A DNA stretch of 10,301 bases. Source: an uncultured Bacilli bacterium. GTDB lineage: Bacteria > Bacillota_I > Bacilli_A > RF39 > UBA660. The translations under genes and the position numbers were made by a program. The notes under the pieces were generated by a model that saw only the letters and a program-made list of their open reading frames with translations, was not told where the DNA came from and did no database searches. Of this stretch, positions 2,914 to 10,301 are shown piece after piece; positions within the stretch are counted from its first letter, which is position 1, and every line of letters begins with the position of its first letter. The stretch is taken from positions 1 through 10,301 of the forward strand of contig CANRCL010000034.1 of the NCBI GenBank assembly GCA_947629115.1, written 5' to 3'.

Positions 2914-3813
2914 TCATTTCTCAATTTTATGCTTATAGTTATCTCTAGTAATTTTCATATAAATATCATCAATTATTTGGCCGTTTTTAACGCCACAATT
3001 TTTATCTACTTGATATACTTCAAAGCCTAATTTTTCATATAAATGTTTTCCTCTTAAATTATGAGAATAAAAACTTAATAATACTTCTTCTAAATTCAAA
3101 ACTTCAAAAGCATATTTTAACAATGTTTTTAAGGCTTCATAACCATAATGCTTATTTTGCCATTCTAAAGTAATACATATACCTACTTCAACATTCTTTT
3201 CATTTAAATCTTTTAATTCAATATTACCAATAAATTCATTAGTTAATTTATCTACCATGGTAAAAATAAGGTCTCTATTATTTAATTTTTCTTCATCTTC
3301 ATATGTAATAGTTCTATTCTTTAAAGTAATATATTGATTAACTTCAGGATTATTAACCATTTCTATATAATCCTCAAGATAATTTTTAGATATATTTACA
3401 TATTTTATTCTTTTAGAATCTAAAACAATATCTTGTAAAGCCTCTTTATATAATTCTTTTATATTAGAAAAAGATAAGAAATCACTTACTTTTGCCATTG
3501 GAACCCATTGATATTCCAAAATTTCTTCTGGTTGTAAATTTATTTCATTATGGTTTTTAATTATACCAATAAAATAGACAACTTCTTTATAAACATTTTC
3601 TTTTGGATTATAAGAAATTAGATATTTTTTATTTTTAATTATTTCTACATCTAAATTGGTTTCTTCTTTTACTTCCCTTAAAGCCGTATCTATTTCACTT
3701 TCCGAATTTTCAGTATGGCCTTTAGGAAATCCCCAATCATTATTAGTAGTTTTAATTAATAAAACCTTATCTTCATTTACTATAATAACTCCACAAGATT
3801 TTTCATGTTTCAT
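2914..3813 (-). CDS. Nudix hydrolase fused to a GNAT acetyltransferase
   Basis: A 299-residue two-domain protein. The N-terminal part (1-130) is a Nudix hydrolase of the Ap4A-hydrolase-like type: W-G-F-P-K-G-H-T-E precedes a Nudix box at 32-54 with Gly32, Glu38, Arg46-Glu47 and Glu50-Glu51 in the required spacing; the usual Gly near its end is Asn53. Such enzymes hydrolyse nucleoside diphosphate-linked compounds. The C-terminal part (about 137-290) is a GNAT N-acetyltransferase of the RimJ/RimL type: Q-N-K-H-Y-G-Y-E-A-L is the acetyl-CoA loop and L-Y-E-K-L-G-F-E the terminal motif. Substrates of both halves are unknown. The start at 3813 has AAGG overlapping the stop of the upstream CAP gene (nine-base gap), so it is cotranscribed. 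It ends with a TGA. The fusion is continuous, with no sign of a frameshift between the domains. Confidence 0.88.
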   Translation of the reverse strand: MKHEKSCGVIIVNEDKVLLIKTTNNDWGFPKGHTENSESEIDTALREVKEETNLDVEIIKNKKYLISYNPKENVYKEVVYFIGIIKNHNEINLQPEEILEYQWVPMAKVSDFLSFSNIKELYKEALQDIVLDSKRIKYVNISKNYLEDYIEMVNNPEVNQYITLKNRTITYEDEEKLNNRDLIFTMVDKLTNEFIGNIELKDLNEKNVEVGICITLEWQNKHYGYEALKTLLKYAFEVLNLEEVLLSFYSHNLRGKHLYEKLGFEVYQVDKNCGVKNGQIIDDIYMKITRDNYKHKIEK

Positions 3814-6006: not shown

Positions 6007-6497
6007 AGAATTAAATCACTTCCCTTATTAGTTATAATCTTTCTATCTTTTGCAATAACTTCTTTAATATAATTAGAAATTAATGGAAGATAAAAACTTT
6101 TAGAACCTTGAACTTTTAATAAATAATTATTTACTTCTTTAATATAATCAATAACTATACCTATTTCTTTATTATCATCAAATACTTTAAATCCAATTAA
6201 ATCCCCAATTAAATATTCATTATCTTTTAAATTTAAATCACTTCTTAAAGTATAAATATTCTTTCCTTTATATTTTAATATTTCATTAATATTACTATAT
6301 CCCTCAAAACAAACTAAATCATAATTTTTATGAACACGATGAGTACTAATAACTTCCTTAACTTTAGTACTCCCAATATATAAAGGATAATCTTTCACAA
6401 ACACTCTATCTTTATAAACAAAATCACTAATTATTTTTACTTCTCCTTTTATTCCAAAAGAATTAACTATTTTACCTACTTCTACATAATTATCCAT
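6003..6497 (-). CDS. rimM: Ribosome maturation factor RimM
   Basis: RimM assists assembly of the 30S head and binds S19; the 164-residue protein has the N-terminal RimM domain (VGKIVNSFGIKGEVKI at the start) and a C-terminal PRC barrel (about 95-160, Y-L-I-G-D-L-I-G-F-K-V then Y-L-L-K-V and P-L-I-x-x-Y-I-K-E-V). I choose the ATG at 6497, not the in-frame ATG at 6509: ATGAGGT at 6509-6503 is itself the ribosome site, with GAGG six bases before the inner ATG. The gene overlaps the end of the ysgA-like gene by eight bases and the trmD start by four. The usual upstream partner rpsP (S16) is absent here. Confidence 0.94.
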   Translation of the reverse strand: MDNYVEVGKIVNSFGIKGEVKIISDFVYKDRVFVKDYPLYIGSTKVKEVISTHRVHKNYDLVCFEGYSNINEILKYKGKNIYTLRSDLNLKDNEYLIGDLIGFKVFDDNKEIGIVIDYIKEVNNYLLKVQGSKSFYLPLISNYIKEVIAKDRKIITNKGSDLIL

Positions 6498-7209
6498 TAT
6501 AGACCTCATACATTAATATACTAGCAGATACTCCAGCATTTAAACTTTCACAATTACTCTTCATCGGTATTTTAACTGTTTTATTACATAAAGAACTAAC
6601 TTCTTTACTTACTCCACTACCCTCATTACCTATTACTAAAGCAATTTTTTGATATTTTAAATTTCTAATATTTTCGCCATCATGAACATTAGTAGTCACT
6701 TTTAAATAAGAACTATCTAAATTAGTAAGAAAATTCTTAATATCACATCTTTTTATATTAAGATGAAAAATCATTCCCTCGGATGCTCTAATTACTTTGG
6801 AGTTATATAAATCTACGGAATCATTACTTAAAATGAGCGTATCAAAATTAAAGGCCACAGCACTTCTTATAATTGTTCCTAAATTACCAGGGTCTTGAAT
6901 TCTATCTAGTATTAAAATATTTCCTTTAATATCTCTTTCAGTTAATTGATTACAAAGGGCAATTATAGTTGTGCCATTTACTTGTTGCGAAATATTTTTC
7001 ATTATTTTATCAGTTATATAAAAAGTTGGTACTTCAAAATTTAATTCTTTATTAATAGTATATATTTCTTTTACTATACCTTGTTTAAGGGCTTCATTTA
7101 CTAAATGTTCATCTTCAATTAAAAATAATTTTTCACTATCTCGATATTTCTTTTGTTTAAGTTTTTCTAGATATTTAATCTTTTCATTATTTAAACTTGT
7201 TATTTCCAT
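6490..7209 (-). CDS. SpoU/TrmH-family RNA 2'-O-methyltransferase (YsgA-like)
   Basis: A 239-residue SPOUT-class RNA ribose methyltransferase. The N-terminal region (1-90) is the SpoU substrate-binding domain (I-K-Y-L-E-K-L-K-Q-K-K-Y-R followed by F-L-I-E-D-E-H-L-V-N-E-A). The three SpoU motifs are clear: D-P-G-N-L-G-T-I-I-R-S-A with the catalytic Arg, A-L-V-I-G-N-E-G-S-G-V-S, and the IPMKSNCESLNAGVSASILMYE knot, the last two binding SAM. The best match is the YsgA/RlmB-like group, which modifies 23S rRNA; the exact target base cannot be read from sequence. I prefer the ATG at 7209, with a GGTGG site seven bases upstream, over the GTG at 7221. It is the first gene of the rimM-trmD operon and has its own promoter at 7228-7256. 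Confidence 0.9.
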   Translation of the reverse strand: MEITSLNNEKIKYLEKLKQKKYRDSEKLFLIEDEHLVNEALKQGIVKEIYTINKELNFEVPTFYITDKIMKNISQQVNGTTIIALCNQLTERDIKGNILILDRIQDPGNLGTIIRSAVAFNFDTLILSNDSVDLYNSKVIRASEGMIFHLNIKRCDIKNFLTNLDSSYLKVTTNVHDGENIRNLKYQKIALVIGNEGSGVSKEVSSLCNKTVKIPMKSNCESLNAGVSASILMYEVYNG

Positions 7210-7227
7210 TAGTACCACCACACTTTA

Positions 7228-7256
7228 AGTATACTAAAAAATTAACTATAAAGCAA
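7228..7256 (-). promoter_or_regulatory. Promoter of the ysgA-rimM-trmD operon
   Basis: A -10 TATACT (7228-7233) lies 17 bases from a weaker -35 TTGCTT (7251-7256). It is downstream of the terminator at 7284-7313, so the operon is transcribed separately from the small RNA. Start of transcription is expected near 7221, giving a leader of only about a dozen bases. Confidence 0.65.
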
Positions 7257-7283
7257 AAAATATTTTAGAAAAATTAGATTCAT

Positions 7284-7313
7284 TAAAAAAATTAGAGATG
7301 TTTAACTCTAATT
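7284..7313 (-). terminator. Rho-independent terminator of the small RNA
   Basis: An eight-base-pair stem (7290-7297 with 7306-7313) with an eight-base loop is followed in the minus-strand transcript by an uninterrupted T tract at 7290-7284. A run of T on the other side (7315-7320) would also allow use from the plus strand, but no plus-strand gene ends here. Confidence 0.85.
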
Positions 7314-7314
7314 C

Positions 7315-7418
7315 TTTTTTAGTTCCCATTTAATGGCTGGGTTCACCGCTTTGTTAGTTTCCTGTTATGGTCGGAATTACCGCTTTGTTAGTTCCCACTT
7401 AATGGCTGGGTTCACCGC
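7315..7418 (-). repeat. Three tandem 34-35-bp units
   Basis: Units at 7384-7418, 7350-7383 and 7315-7349 abut without spacers. Units 1 and 3 differ at two of 35 positions; unit 2 is more diverged in the stem and loop but keeps both flanks (GCGGT and ACTAACAAA). The absence of spacers rules out a CRISPR array. Confidence 0.9.
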
Positions 7419-7449
7419 TTTTAAAGTGCATAATTTCTTATGCACTTAT

Positions 7450-7478
7450 AATATATAATATTTTTAGACTTTTGTCAA
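7450..7478 (-). promoter_or_regulatory. Strong promoter of the small RNA
   Basis: A perfect -35 TTGACA (7473-7478) is 17 bases from -10 TATATT (7450-7455). The -35 begins two bases after the stop codon of the metalloprotease gene. It is the closest match to the SigA consensus in the window and fires into a region with no reading frame. Confidence 0.8.
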
Positions 7479-7480
7479 TT

Positions 7481-8731
7481 TTATTTCTGCCTTATTAAGT
7501 AATTTTGATATAAAGCATTTATTTTAGTTTCACTAGTTAATTTTTCCAAGTCTCTTCTTAATTCTTCATTACTTTTTTTAACTACTTCACCATTTTCAAT
7601 TTTAGCCAAATATTTTAATTGCGGATAATATTTTAATATAAATGGTTTATCATATATAGTATCCCAAAATAAAGGCTCTAAACGTTCTTTATATCCATTA
7701 ACCATTCTAATATCATTATAAAATTCTCTTTGTAATTCCGTTAATTTTTCTTGAATATTTTCTTCTTTAGGTACTTCTATTCCTAATTTTTTTAACATAT
7801 TTAATTGACCTTGTTTACCAAAATATTCAGCATCTATTTCATAAGATATTACATCATAATTTTCATCATAATACCCTGTAATAAATTGCGATAATATTTT
7901 ATCCATTGACATAATCATATTTTCTAAAGATATATCTTTCCCCGTAAATACTCTAGCATCTTGATAAGTATGTCTTAATTCATGAAATATCGTTAATAAT
8001 AAAGCATTACTTCCATACATATATAAATAATTTAATTCTTCTAAAGTTAATCTAATTGAATCTTTATCATTATCTCCAACTATTATATTATTTGTTTTAA
8101 CTTTATTTAGTTCTTTTAAAGGAACAAATTCACAATGAGGATTAGGATAATATACCTTTATTTGTTTTTCTACCCAATATTTAATTAAATCTTTCATAGA
8201 TTCTCTTTCAATCATTGGGGAATATATCGCATCATTTAAAGGAGTTTTAATTAAATGATAAATAAAATAATCGACAAAAACATCTAAATCTTTATAAGAA
8301 GTAGCAATAATTGTTTCAATAGTATTTAAATCAGATACCCAAACATTTTCTCCTTGTTTTATTCTTTTAATACTTCTTTCATATACTTTATTAATTGAGG
8401 ATTGATAATTATATCTTTTTAAAAAGTTATTAACTTCATCTATTTCTATACCTTTAAGAGAATATAATAGATTAAATAATATATTAGCCCTTATATTTTT
8501 AATGGGTATGTTTAATAAATATTCATTAAATCTTTTTAATAAACTATTTAATTTAATAATTTCTATTTTTAATTCTTTACTTTCACTATGACATTGTTTA
8601 CAAGTATAATTTAAAAAACTACCACCACATTTAGGACATATTTTTAAATTATTAATATTATCTATTATTGGTTTTACTTCTTTATATATTTTTTCAATAA
8701 TACTATCTATATATTGTTGATATACATTCAT
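7481..8731 (-). CDS. Zinc-ribbon, HExxH metalloprotease-like protein
   Basis: A 416-residue protein without signal peptide or membrane segment, so probably cytosolic. Residues 32-47 form a zinc ribbon with paired Cys-x-x-Cys motifs (Cys32, Cys35, Cys44, Cys47). Residues 246-258 carry the zincin signature: HELRH at 250-254 with Glu251 as the expected catalytic base, followed by TYQD. A downstream I-S-Y-E-I-D-A-E segment (295-302) could supply the third zinc ligand, as in gluzincins. The rest is largely helical and charged. I do not recognise a named family or a substrate. It is monocistronic by appearance: a terminator of the DUF285 gene lies upstream and the small-RNA promoter begins right after its stop. 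The ATG at 8731 has only a moderate ribosome site (GGGTAAGTG). Confidence 0.8.
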   Translation of the reverse strand: MNVYQQYIDSIIEKIYKEVKPIIDNINNLKICPKCGGSFLNYTCKQCHSESKELKIEIIKLNSLLKRFNEYLLNIPIKNIRANILFNLLYSLKGIEIDEVNNFLKRYNYQSSINKVYERSIKRIKQGENVWVSDLNTIETIIATSYKDLDVFVDYFIYHLIKTPLNDAIYSPMIERESMKDLIKYWVEKQIKVYYPNPHCEFVPLKELNKVKTNNIIVGDNDKDSIRLTLEELNYLYMYGSNALLLTIFHELRHTYQDARVFTGKDISLENMIMSMDKILSQFITGYYDENYDVISYEIDAEYFGKQGQLNMLKKLGIEVPKEENIQEKLTELQREFYNDIRMVNGYKERLEPLFWDTIYDKPFILKYYPQLKYLAKIENGEVVKKSNEELRRDLEKLTSETKINALYQNYLIRQK

Positions 8732-8771: not shown

Positions 8772-8798
8772 AAAAAAGAAAGATGGTTAGTCTTTCTT
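8772..8798 (-). terminator. Rho-independent terminator of the DUF285 gene
   Basis: An eight-base-pair stem (8776-8783 with 8791-8798, seven-base loop) overlaps the stop codon of the DUF285 protein and is followed in the transcript by six U (8777-8772). Confidence 0.85.
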
Positions 8799-10301
8799 AA
8801 TCAACATAAGATGGAGTGAATTTTCTATCAAAGGTACCTGTACCTAAAGGAAATTTATCTTCAAATATTTCTCTTTGACTTGATTTTATTGTGACTACAC
8901 ATTCGGACGGAACATAATTGAATGTACCACTGTTACCAGCACTATAACCACCATCGGTAGTTATTTTGTCAAATGTAAAACTACTTAAATCTAAATTAGT
9001 TAAACTAATACAACTTTGAAACATATAACTCATATCGGTTACTTGGGATGTATCAAAAGTACTTAAATCTAATGTGGTTCCTTGATAACTCTCAAACATA
9101 CGGCCCATATTTTTTACATTACTTGTTGTAAATTTTGACCAGTCTTTAAATGGTAATTCTGCTGATACACCATTAAACATAGAACTCATATTTTCTACTT
9201 TTGATGTATCAAAATTACTTAAATCTAAGGTGGTTCCTTGATAGCCAGAAAACATACCACTCATATAGGTTGCCGCTGAGCCAAATCTTTGCGGAAAGGT
9301 TATAGATGCATTAGTATACTCAAACATAGAACTCATATTTGTCACTTGTGATGTATCAAAATTACTTAAATCTAAGGTGGTTCCTTGATAGCCAGAAAAC
9401 ATACCACTCATATTTTCTACATTATTTGTAATAAATTTTTGCCACTCTTTAAATGGCAATTCTGCTGATACATTTCCAAACATACGAAACATATTTGTCA
9501 CTTTCGATGTATCAAATGTACTTAAATCTAATGTGGTTAAATCATTACATCCATAAAACATATTAGCCATATTTTTTACTTTTTCGGTATTAAAATGATT
9601 TAAACCCTTTATTTCTTTTATTGACGTATTATAATCATTTGAGCCAAACATATGACTCATATCGGTTACTTGGGATGTATCAAAATTACTTAAATCTAAA
9701 CTTTCTATTGACATGTCATGTCCATAAGAACCAAATAAATAACTCATATTTGTTGCTTCACTTGTATTTAAGTTATCAAAAGTTATCGTTTTTAAATTTG
9801 TCATATCTCTGAAACCATTTGATAAATCAGTAGTGTATATTTCTCCTTTTGAACCAATATATAAATCATATTTATTTGGTTCTGCCTCATTTGCCTCTAA
9901 CCATCCTATTACACTTTTTTGAGAAGTTCCTTTAGATGTATCTGATAAGTCCCAATATTTTGGTTTACTTGTTAATTCTTCTTCACTTGGTACATAATCT
10001 ACAAAGGATGCTCTTACTATTTTATATATATATTGATTCGAACGATAAAGTGTTCCGTAATAATATTCTCTATCTTCATCAAGGTTTGCCACATTATCCA
10101 ATTTAGCATAAACTTTTTCTCTCTTTTCCCCTACACTACATACCAAATTTTCATTTGTTATATTTATATCTATATCTTTTCCTGCTAATGCTGTTTGGTC
10201 GTCTTTTGTATTTTTTAATTCTATCGCTGCTGTTATATTTACACTACTATCTCCTACTATGGTATAGTTTACTGTTGTTTTATAACCCTTATTATTTTTT
10301 G
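8797..10301 (-). CDS. DUF285/BspA-like repeat surface protein, N-terminus beyond right edge
   Basis: The reading frame is open to the window edge: upstream of the TTG at 10146 another 51 codons continue in frame without a stop, so at least 500 C-terminal residues of a larger protein are present. After a non-repetitive part, about ten repeats of roughly 24-26 residues follow the pattern L-D-L-S-x-F-D-T-S-x-V-x-N-M-x-x-M-F, the mark of DUF285 (PF03382), the Mycoplasma/Bacillota relatives of BspA leucine-rich repeats. An eleventh copy is degenerate. Some repeats form alternating pairs (one with LDLSNFDTS, one with Trp/Phe-rich start). There is no LPxTG motif, membrane segment or cell-wall domain at the C-terminus (ends F-T-P-S-Y-V-D), so attachment must come from the unseen N-terminal part, for example a lipobox. 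Such proteins are surface-exposed and linked to adhesion. Confidence 0.88.
   Translation of the reverse strand, partial: KNNKGYKTTVNYTIVGDSSVNITAAIELKNTKDDQTALAGKDIDINITNENLVCSVGEKREKVYAKLDNVANLDEDREYYYGTLYRSNQYIYKIVRASFVDYVPSEEELTSKPKYWDLSDTSKGTSQKSVIGWLEANEAEPNKYDLYIGSKGEIYTTDLSNGFRDMTNLKTITFDNLNTSEATNMSYLFGSYGHDMSIESLDLSNFDTSQVTDMSHMFGSNDYNTSIKEIKGLNHFNTEKVKNMANMFYGCNDLTTLDLSTFDTSKVTNMFRMFGNVSAELPFKEWQKFITNNVENMSGMFSGYQGTTLDLSNFDTSQVTNMSSMFEYTNASITFPQRFGSAATYMSGMFSGYQGTTLDLSNFDTSKVENMSSMFNGVSAELPFKDWSKFTTSNVKNMGRMFESYQGTTLDLSTFDTSQVTDMSYMFQSCISLTNLDLSSFTFDKITTDGGYSAGNSGTFNYVPSECVVTIKSSQREIFEDKFPLGTGTFDRKFTPSYVD
9175..9413 (-). repeat. 92-bp near-identical direct repeats inside the DUF285 gene
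   Basis: Bases 9175-9266 recur at 9322-9413 (period 147 bp, 49 codons) with about four mismatches; 64 bp (9203-9266 and 9350-9413) are identical. The match is higher than protein conservation alone requires, pointing to recent duplication or gene conversion. In-frame recombination would remove or add two repeats. Confidence 0.85.

Follow-up and report, generated by a model that had tools for sequence, protein, structure and literature searches.

Type III toxin-antitoxin loci, as described in PMC5086642, consist of a promoter, tandem repeats, a terminator and a toxin gene, with the terminator lying between the antitoxin and toxN. ToxN cuts the precursor RNA into single repeats, and the pseudoknotted ToxI then occludes the active sites of the toxin; antiQ was reported to require at least 1.8 repeats (PMC5086642, PMC8860590). 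ToxI of Bacillus thuringiensis and antiQ of Lactococcus are built of tandem 34-36-nt units, each an H-type pseudoknot, with a promoter upstream and a terminator downstream, and have about three units (34 nt x 2.9 and 35 nt x 2.8, PMC5086642). The overall architecture is the same in ToxIN of Pectobacterium atrosepticum (pECA1039) and of E. coli (PMC5086642, PMC8860590). Antitoxin-like repeats without a toxin gene are described in phage PhiTE, whose pseudo-ToxI acts on ToxN made elsewhere; pseudo-ToxI suppressed ToxN in an abortive-infection assay, and a single repeat did not in an over-expression assay (PMC3475682).

Here we analyzed a stretch of 10,301 nucleotides from an uncultured Bacilli bacterium (hereafter, the window). 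It carries an array that resembles ToxI of B. thuringiensis and antiQ of Lactococcus in unit length, number of units and flanking signals; unlike ToxIN and AbiQ, the window has no toxin gene downstream. Pseudo-ToxI of PhiTE shares this absence; however, it is a phage counter-defence that arose by repeat expansion or recombination, as described in PMC3475682, whereas the window array has a promoter and a terminator of its own at a chromosome-like locus. From the comparisons described below, we consider the array very probably an orphan antitoxin RNA of type III, resembling ToxI and antiQ, from a ToxIN/AbiQ system. CptIN and TenpIN are type III systems of the same kind; the toxins linked to arrays of this family match ToxN/AbiQ models, the only toxin models compared.

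The array beside ysgA

The array and its surroundings comprise the following features.

7481-8731, minus strand: gene for a 416-aa protein adjoining the array, with no Pfam or NCBIfam family match
7450-7478, minus strand: sigma-70-type promoter of the array RNA, TTGACA-17-TATATT (11 of 12 matches; hexamers and spacing shared by genomes G393 and G403 at the same locus)
7424-7447, minus strand: 5' hairpin with a GAAA cap, AAGTGCATAA/TTATGCACTT, read from the sequence
7384-7418, minus strand: putative antitoxin unit 1, 35 nt, possible H-type pseudoknot GGU/GCC plus CCCA/UGGG
7350-7383, minus strand: putative antitoxin unit 2, 34 nt, possible H-type pseudoknot GGU/ACC plus UUCC/GGAA
7315-7349, minus strand: putative antitoxin unit 3, 35 nt, possible H-type pseudoknot GGU/GCC plus CCCA/UGGG
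7285-7313, minus strand: Rho-independent terminator, AATTAGAG/CTCTAATT and a T run (stem 7313-7290, T run to 7285), directly after unit 3
7257-7284, minus strand: 28-nt gap from the terminator to the ysgA promoter; in G393 an intact toxN occupies this place
7228-7256, minus strand: promoter-like TTGCTT-17-TATACT upstream of ysgA; array-less relatives have a similar TAGTATACT stretch before ysgA
6490-7221, minus strand: ysgA-like gene for a SpoU RNA methyltransferase, next to the array (judged by relatives, the ATG at 7209 is the likelier start)

A preliminary description of this DNA, made from the sequence alone, had listed a promoter, a 5' hairpin capped by GAAA, three units of 34-35 nt in direct succession, a terminator and a separate promoter for ysgA, all of which we found in place. 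The three tandem units (35, 34 and 35 nt) have the 34-36-nt repeat length of ToxIN/AbiQ antitoxins, and a Rho-independent terminator follows them, as in type III systems. The array promoter was the top-scoring of 10 sites in a scan of 1.2 kb, a number of sites close to chance (9.4 in shuffled sequences). The terminator scored -7.7 kcal/mol in an energy-based scan; the built-in terminator scan listed no site, because it requires three G-C pairs and this stem has two. Hairpins that by eye resemble the 5' hairpin also occur upstream of other arrays, both with and without a toxin. None of the ten window ORFs compared with Pfam matched ToxN, so the window lacks a complete type III system, nor did we detect any toxN stub in the 1.2 kb downstream of the array.

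Both stems of a compact H-type pseudoknot, proposed in the preliminary description for every unit, can be drawn in all three. The accompanying claim, that three of four stem base pairs change between units with pairing kept, came from stems compared one register apart. In register, only a single pair is altered on both sides between units 1 and 3 and unit 2 (from C-G to U-A). Two C-G pairs stay the same, and at the stem ends an A-U pair gives way to G.A while a U-A pair is added; covariation is nevertheless seen across relatives, above all in the GGU/RCC stem. The UUCC/GGAA variant is found in unit 2 of G393 and G396 too. Folded as a whole, the 159-nt array RNA had a z-score of -2.15, and 4 of 200 shuffled sequences folded equally well. 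Its minimum-energy nested structure comprises the 5' hairpin, the terminator and the unit-2 stem, with units 1 and 3 pairing with each other, rather than three separate unit hairpins. An H-type pseudoknot in each unit is predicted by comparison, since stem S1 covaries in both orphan and toxin-linked units (see below).

The 416-aa protein has what we take to be a zinc-ribbon-like motif (CPKCGG..CKQCH) and a metallopeptidase-like motif (HELRH). Only five relatives besides itself, at 33-35% identity, were found among 5.8 billion proteins. In relatives, genes that look similar by eye lie upstream of ysgA or of the array there (loci L137 and L196, for example). Elsewhere on the minus strand of the window, a surface protein of PARCEL/DUF285 repeats is encoded at 8797-10299 and extends past the window end, and a protein encoded at 2914-3813 has a NUDIX domain fused to a GNAT acetyltransferase domain.

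Linkage of homologous arrays to toxN

In one scan of a genome-contig collection, a strict unit pattern identified 12 loci: 11 tandem arrays and one chance match inside a coding region (L004, Saprospiraceae). This recurrence is firmer evidence against chance than the fold score of the RNA. Eight of the 11 arrays are labelled Bacilli, and the others Clostridia (L002), Clostridium (L008) and archaeon (L005). The arrays of L002 and L005, both from horse faeces, are nearly identical to each other and close to Bacilli arrays, and their labels may be binning errors. Downstream of the array, six loci (L001, L002, L008, L010, L011 and L012) have a terminator and then a ToxN ORF. These ORFs, two of them in L001, match ToxN in Pfam (PF13958, E 1e-43 to 1e-50) and AbiQ in PADLOC, and the one in L010 also matches four ToxN or AbiQ chains of solved structure, with 4ato at the top (E 6.5e-23). 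Unlike Pfam and PADLOC, NCBIfam gave no match for three ToxN proteins. In L001 there are two consecutive toxN genes, each with its own array, the second array being of another, 41-nt unit type.

A covariance-model search of related Bacilli, suggested in the preliminary description, was run with a model (R1) built from 32 units, including the three of the window and those of L001-L012 without L004, so that R1 matches on these arrays are circular. Across 385 genomes of one order, R1 detected homologous arrays in 90, and ToxN was found in 100 (96 over the Pfam cut-off). The matches listed comprise 79 arrays in 72 of the 90 R1-positive genomes, and among these, toxN lies downstream of 51 of 79, no more than 1.5 kb away and in the same orientation. 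Of four annotated ToxN/AbiQ loci compared with R1, two had matching arrays: one on a Fusobacterium plasmid, at up to 25.1 bits, and one on a Lactococcus plasmid, at up to 19.2 bits. The Sutcliffiella locus scored weakly (10.7 bits), and R1 gave no match at the P. atrosepticum pECA1039 locus, which also differs from the window in having its toxin and a longer array (36 nt x 5.5, as given in PMC5086642). Given the toxN linkage and the R1 matches on annotated plasmid arrays, the window units are best assigned to the type III antitoxins of the ToxIN/AbiQ kind.

This assignment goes against the earlier remark that no described family like this was known, these arrays being the antitoxin half of ToxIN/AbiQ systems, with toxN (PF13958) carried by relatives. 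The same description had proposed a modular RNA carrying copies of a protein-, RNA- or ligand-binding element: the modularity is supported, and protein binding was an idea of the right kind. We set aside the ligand-binding (riboswitch-like) reading, as array neighbours vary and the toxN linkage accounts for the arrays.

The window had no match among 4227 Rfam families at E up to 1. Eight sources, including the four annotated ToxN/AbiQ loci (one of them pECA1039), gave a single sub-threshold microRNA match; the Rfam result for the window, one of the checks named in the preliminary description, is therefore uninformative, as annotated ToxN/AbiQ loci were unmatched as well. Type III antitoxins seem to be without a usable Rfam model. 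The pECA1039 ToxN locus (L140 in our set) also had no Rfam 15 match at E up to 0.5. A viral origin of the arrays was considered and rejected, two array patterns having no matches in viral contigs.

The ysgA locus in related genomes

We examined the genus of genome G151, which has the best YsgA match in the order sample. The genus is represented by 38 genomes, and the relatives are incomplete metagenome assemblies. Arrays were found in 18 of them (R1, E up to 0.001) and toxN in 14. In 32 we identified a YsgA orthologue that shares at least 61% identity across most of its length, and in six of these R1 detected an array directly upstream of ysgA. Three (G393, G403 and G407) have an intact toxN between the array and ysgA, and three (G396, G202 and G326) have the array and ysgA without toxN, to which the window adds a further case. 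In G396 we did not detect toxN anywhere in the genome.

The order of elements in G393 is promoter, hairpin, the same three units, terminator, toxN and ysgA. G393 and G396 are the closest to the window among the relatives sampled (YsgA identity 74% for both), and the three form a clade in the YsgA tree (support 98/91), with G393 and G396 as sisters (100/99). G202 and G326 have unsupported placements in this tree, which was built from 31 of the 32 genus orthologues (G397 was left out) and leaves 13 of 32 inner branches unresolved. The array states were no more clustered on it than in shuffles (209 and 230 of 500). Over aligned bases the window array is identical to that of G393 at 96 of 101 positions and to that of G396 at 94 of 101, while fourfold-degenerate third positions of ysgA agree with the window at 25 of 52 (G393) and 29 of 52 (G396). 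The conservation between the window and G393 may partly be older than any toxin loss. In unit 1 of G396, CCCG/CGGG replaces the CCCA/UGGG of G393 and the window, a two-sided A-U to G-C change on a toxin-less branch.

Taken together, the homology of the units, including a G393 counterpart with toxN, the unit-by-unit match to the array-toxN locus of G393 and the absence of toxN from the window locus show by comparison that the window array corresponds to the antitoxin of the ysgA locus without its toxin, the absence of toxN applying to this locus only. For the window and the G393/G396 pair alone, parsimony favours one toxN gain in G393 over two losses. That the toxin was lost rather than gained is argued instead from stubs and broken toxN genes at other loci, which make loss the most likely course. 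Overall, an orphan antitoxin beside ysgA, its toxin most likely lost and any action on ToxN exerted in trans, is highly probable.

The array adjoins ysgA on the same strand, and could in principle act as a leader or attenuator of that gene. We consider this very improbable: a terminator and a separate ysgA promoter intervene, a similar promoter stretch precedes ysgA in array-less relatives, toxN lies between array and ysgA in the three relatives named above, and arrays elsewhere stand before unrelated genes. The view of the preliminary description, that this is an independent RNA and not a ysgA leader, was thus borne out.

Orphan arrays and their conservation

Among the matches listed, 28 of the 79 arrays are unlinked to toxN, and about 24 count as orphans. 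Three were not counted because they lie within about 200 nt of a contig end (G015, G095 and G278) and one because it lies just behind toxN (G323), while two arrays with toxN stubs (L125 and L131) were counted. In G323 (contig C6, loci L056 and L124), one toxN is flanked by arrays on both sides, the upstream units being of a longer, 39-nt type.

Several loci appear to record stages of toxin loss. C-terminal toxN stubs directly follow the array in two of 22 orphans tested (L125, E 2.9e-7; L131, E 1.7e-5), and in L197 the toxN after the array is split over two frames. At the ruvB locus, L011 has the toxin and L120 does not, and their arrays are identical at 105 of 109 positions; likewise at the polA locus, L010 has the toxin and L007 does not (a pair compared by its surroundings only, outside the identity calculation).

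An orphan might serve a ToxN encoded elsewhere in the same genome, in a split or cross-wired toxin-antitoxin arrangement. Orphans do coexist with toxN at other loci in G132, G322, G329 and G391; but at least 16 of the 24, among the matches listed, sit in 15 genomes of the order sample without detected toxN, as do the arrays in 8 of the 18 array-bearing genomes of the G151 genus. Even allowing for the incompleteness of these assemblies, we regard such an arrangement as unlikely. Rather less likely still is that the RNA has been co-opted and now binds another protein or RNA. The array is kept without a toxin in several species, as co-option would have it, but orphan units resemble toxin-linked units and the neighbour genes are many and different. 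No common partner gene was apparent by eye around 20 unlinked arrays (including the non-orphans L124, L129 and L132) and 10 further array loci (including L196, at a contig end, and L197, with the broken toxN).

A more serious alternative is that the window array is a passive relic, from which toxN was deleted recently and which, though not yet eroded, is now functionless. The stubs and broken toxN genes show that losses occur, and there are orphans with what looks like decay, such as L139, reduced to a single unit and lacking a terminator, and L009, whose first unit is damaged. Orphan promoters also appear somewhat weaker, since 20 of 31 orphans score at least 10 of 12, compared to 24 of 27 linked arrays (28 linked loci were entered and 27 scored, L064 being dropped) and 10% of background pieces; some best promoter sites, more than 100 nt from the array, may be chance matches. 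A terminator is present in 29 of 31 orphans and in 27 of 27 linked arrays.

The pseudoknot, in contrast, is not decayed in orphans relative to linked arrays, among the units counted. We compared 57 orphan units from 22 loci (set A2) with 71 linked units from 34 loci (set A3, including G375, whose toxN is in two pieces). Counted over the three core pairs of S1, 170 of 171 cells are paired in the orphan units and 211 of 213 in the linked ones. These values are upper bounds, because the units were picked largely by patterns that constrain the S1 letters, if only to purine or pyrimidine (some units were picked by hand, and duplicates were dropped). The selection pattern does not produce AU-for-GC changes in S1, and at one S1 pair a two-sided GC-to-AU replacement is seen in 7 of 57 orphan and 6 of 71 linked units. 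Stem S2 is paired in 76.1% of orphan and 76.6% of linked cells, counts that are lowered because the MAFFT alignment sets several A2 rows one register off.

In both orphan and linked sets the percentage paired and the covariation score exceeded all 500 shuffles, whereas the number of pairs changed on both sides did not beat the shuffles (83, 133 and 22 of 500 were as high in sets A1, A2 and A3, respectively). When the pairing was slid along the units, the true register gave more paired cells than any other, although in orphans both-side changes are more numerous at slide -1 (40) than in the true register (26). Since S2 shifts register between unit types, which partly raises the slide -1 count, it is S1 that carries the pairing argument.

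Orphans beside the same gene in diverged species also speak against a passive relic, their arrays being 82-89% identical. The orphans L194 and L195, both in genomes without detected toxN, lie beside an SDR-like gene followed by a uvrB-like gene; their arrays are identical at 95 of 107 positions, while the gene is 78% identical in amino acids and agrees at 26 of 61 fourfold sites. For L121 and L134, which share a neighbour gene, the figures are 88 of 107 for the array, 55% for the protein and 9 of 19 fourfold sites. The arrays of L131 and L192 agree at 70 of 71 positions (fourfold sites 88 of 160), and those of L128 and L188, from close species, at 102 of 103 (fourfold sites 49 of 56). The two-sided change in unit 1 of G396 would point the same way if it came after toxin loss, but it may also have come before. 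Orphans thus keep the pseudoknot and the terminator about as well as linked arrays do, and some are better conserved than synonymous sites. With the observations on both sides, we hold the relic explanation to be possible but doubtful.

Under the preferred reading, an orphan antitoxin that still acts on ToxN, transcription from the array's own promoter would yield an RNA of roughly 160 nt ending at the terminator, in which each 34-35-nt unit would fold as an H-type pseudoknot able to bind ToxN-family endoribonucleases and block them. As there is no toxin in cis, the target of such an RNA could only be a ToxN supplied in trans, whether from another place in the cell or brought in by transfer. 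With its three units, the RNA should, if transcribed, neutralize a cognate ToxN. It is probable that the window RNA retains this ability when expressed. Whether the array is retained for that reason, as insurance, is a separate matter: this may be so, although we would put it somewhat short of an even chance.

The type III system itself is known, and the toxin-less arrays kept at fixed loci are a variant of it. Our search of the open-licence literature, partly with broad terms, found no description of orphan type III antitoxins, which does not prove their absence from print. Because the surveys that PMC5086642 describes take the toxin as their starting point and ask for a ToxN homologue, orphan antitoxins are invisible to them.

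An orphan array poses the question of why a cell would keep an antidote without the poison. As a tentative proposal, orphan type III antitoxins may be selected stand-alone RNAs in these Bacilli, retained once toxN is gone as a vaccine-like shield (an RNA anti-addiction element) against the ToxN of plasmids, phages and neighbours, with one locus found in either state in closely related species. ToxN homologues occur in 160 plasmid and three phage records, all below 60% identity, and in viral contigs ToxN was found at three loci out of 239 pattern matches, which gives no support for a phage-borne threat to this group. The set of arrays spans complete, broken-toxin, stub-only and clean orphan stages and includes, at one locus, related species that have the toxin or lack it. 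These stages make two questions directly testable: whether an RNA antitoxin can be kept for its own sake, and whether it would immunize the cell against foreign ToxN.
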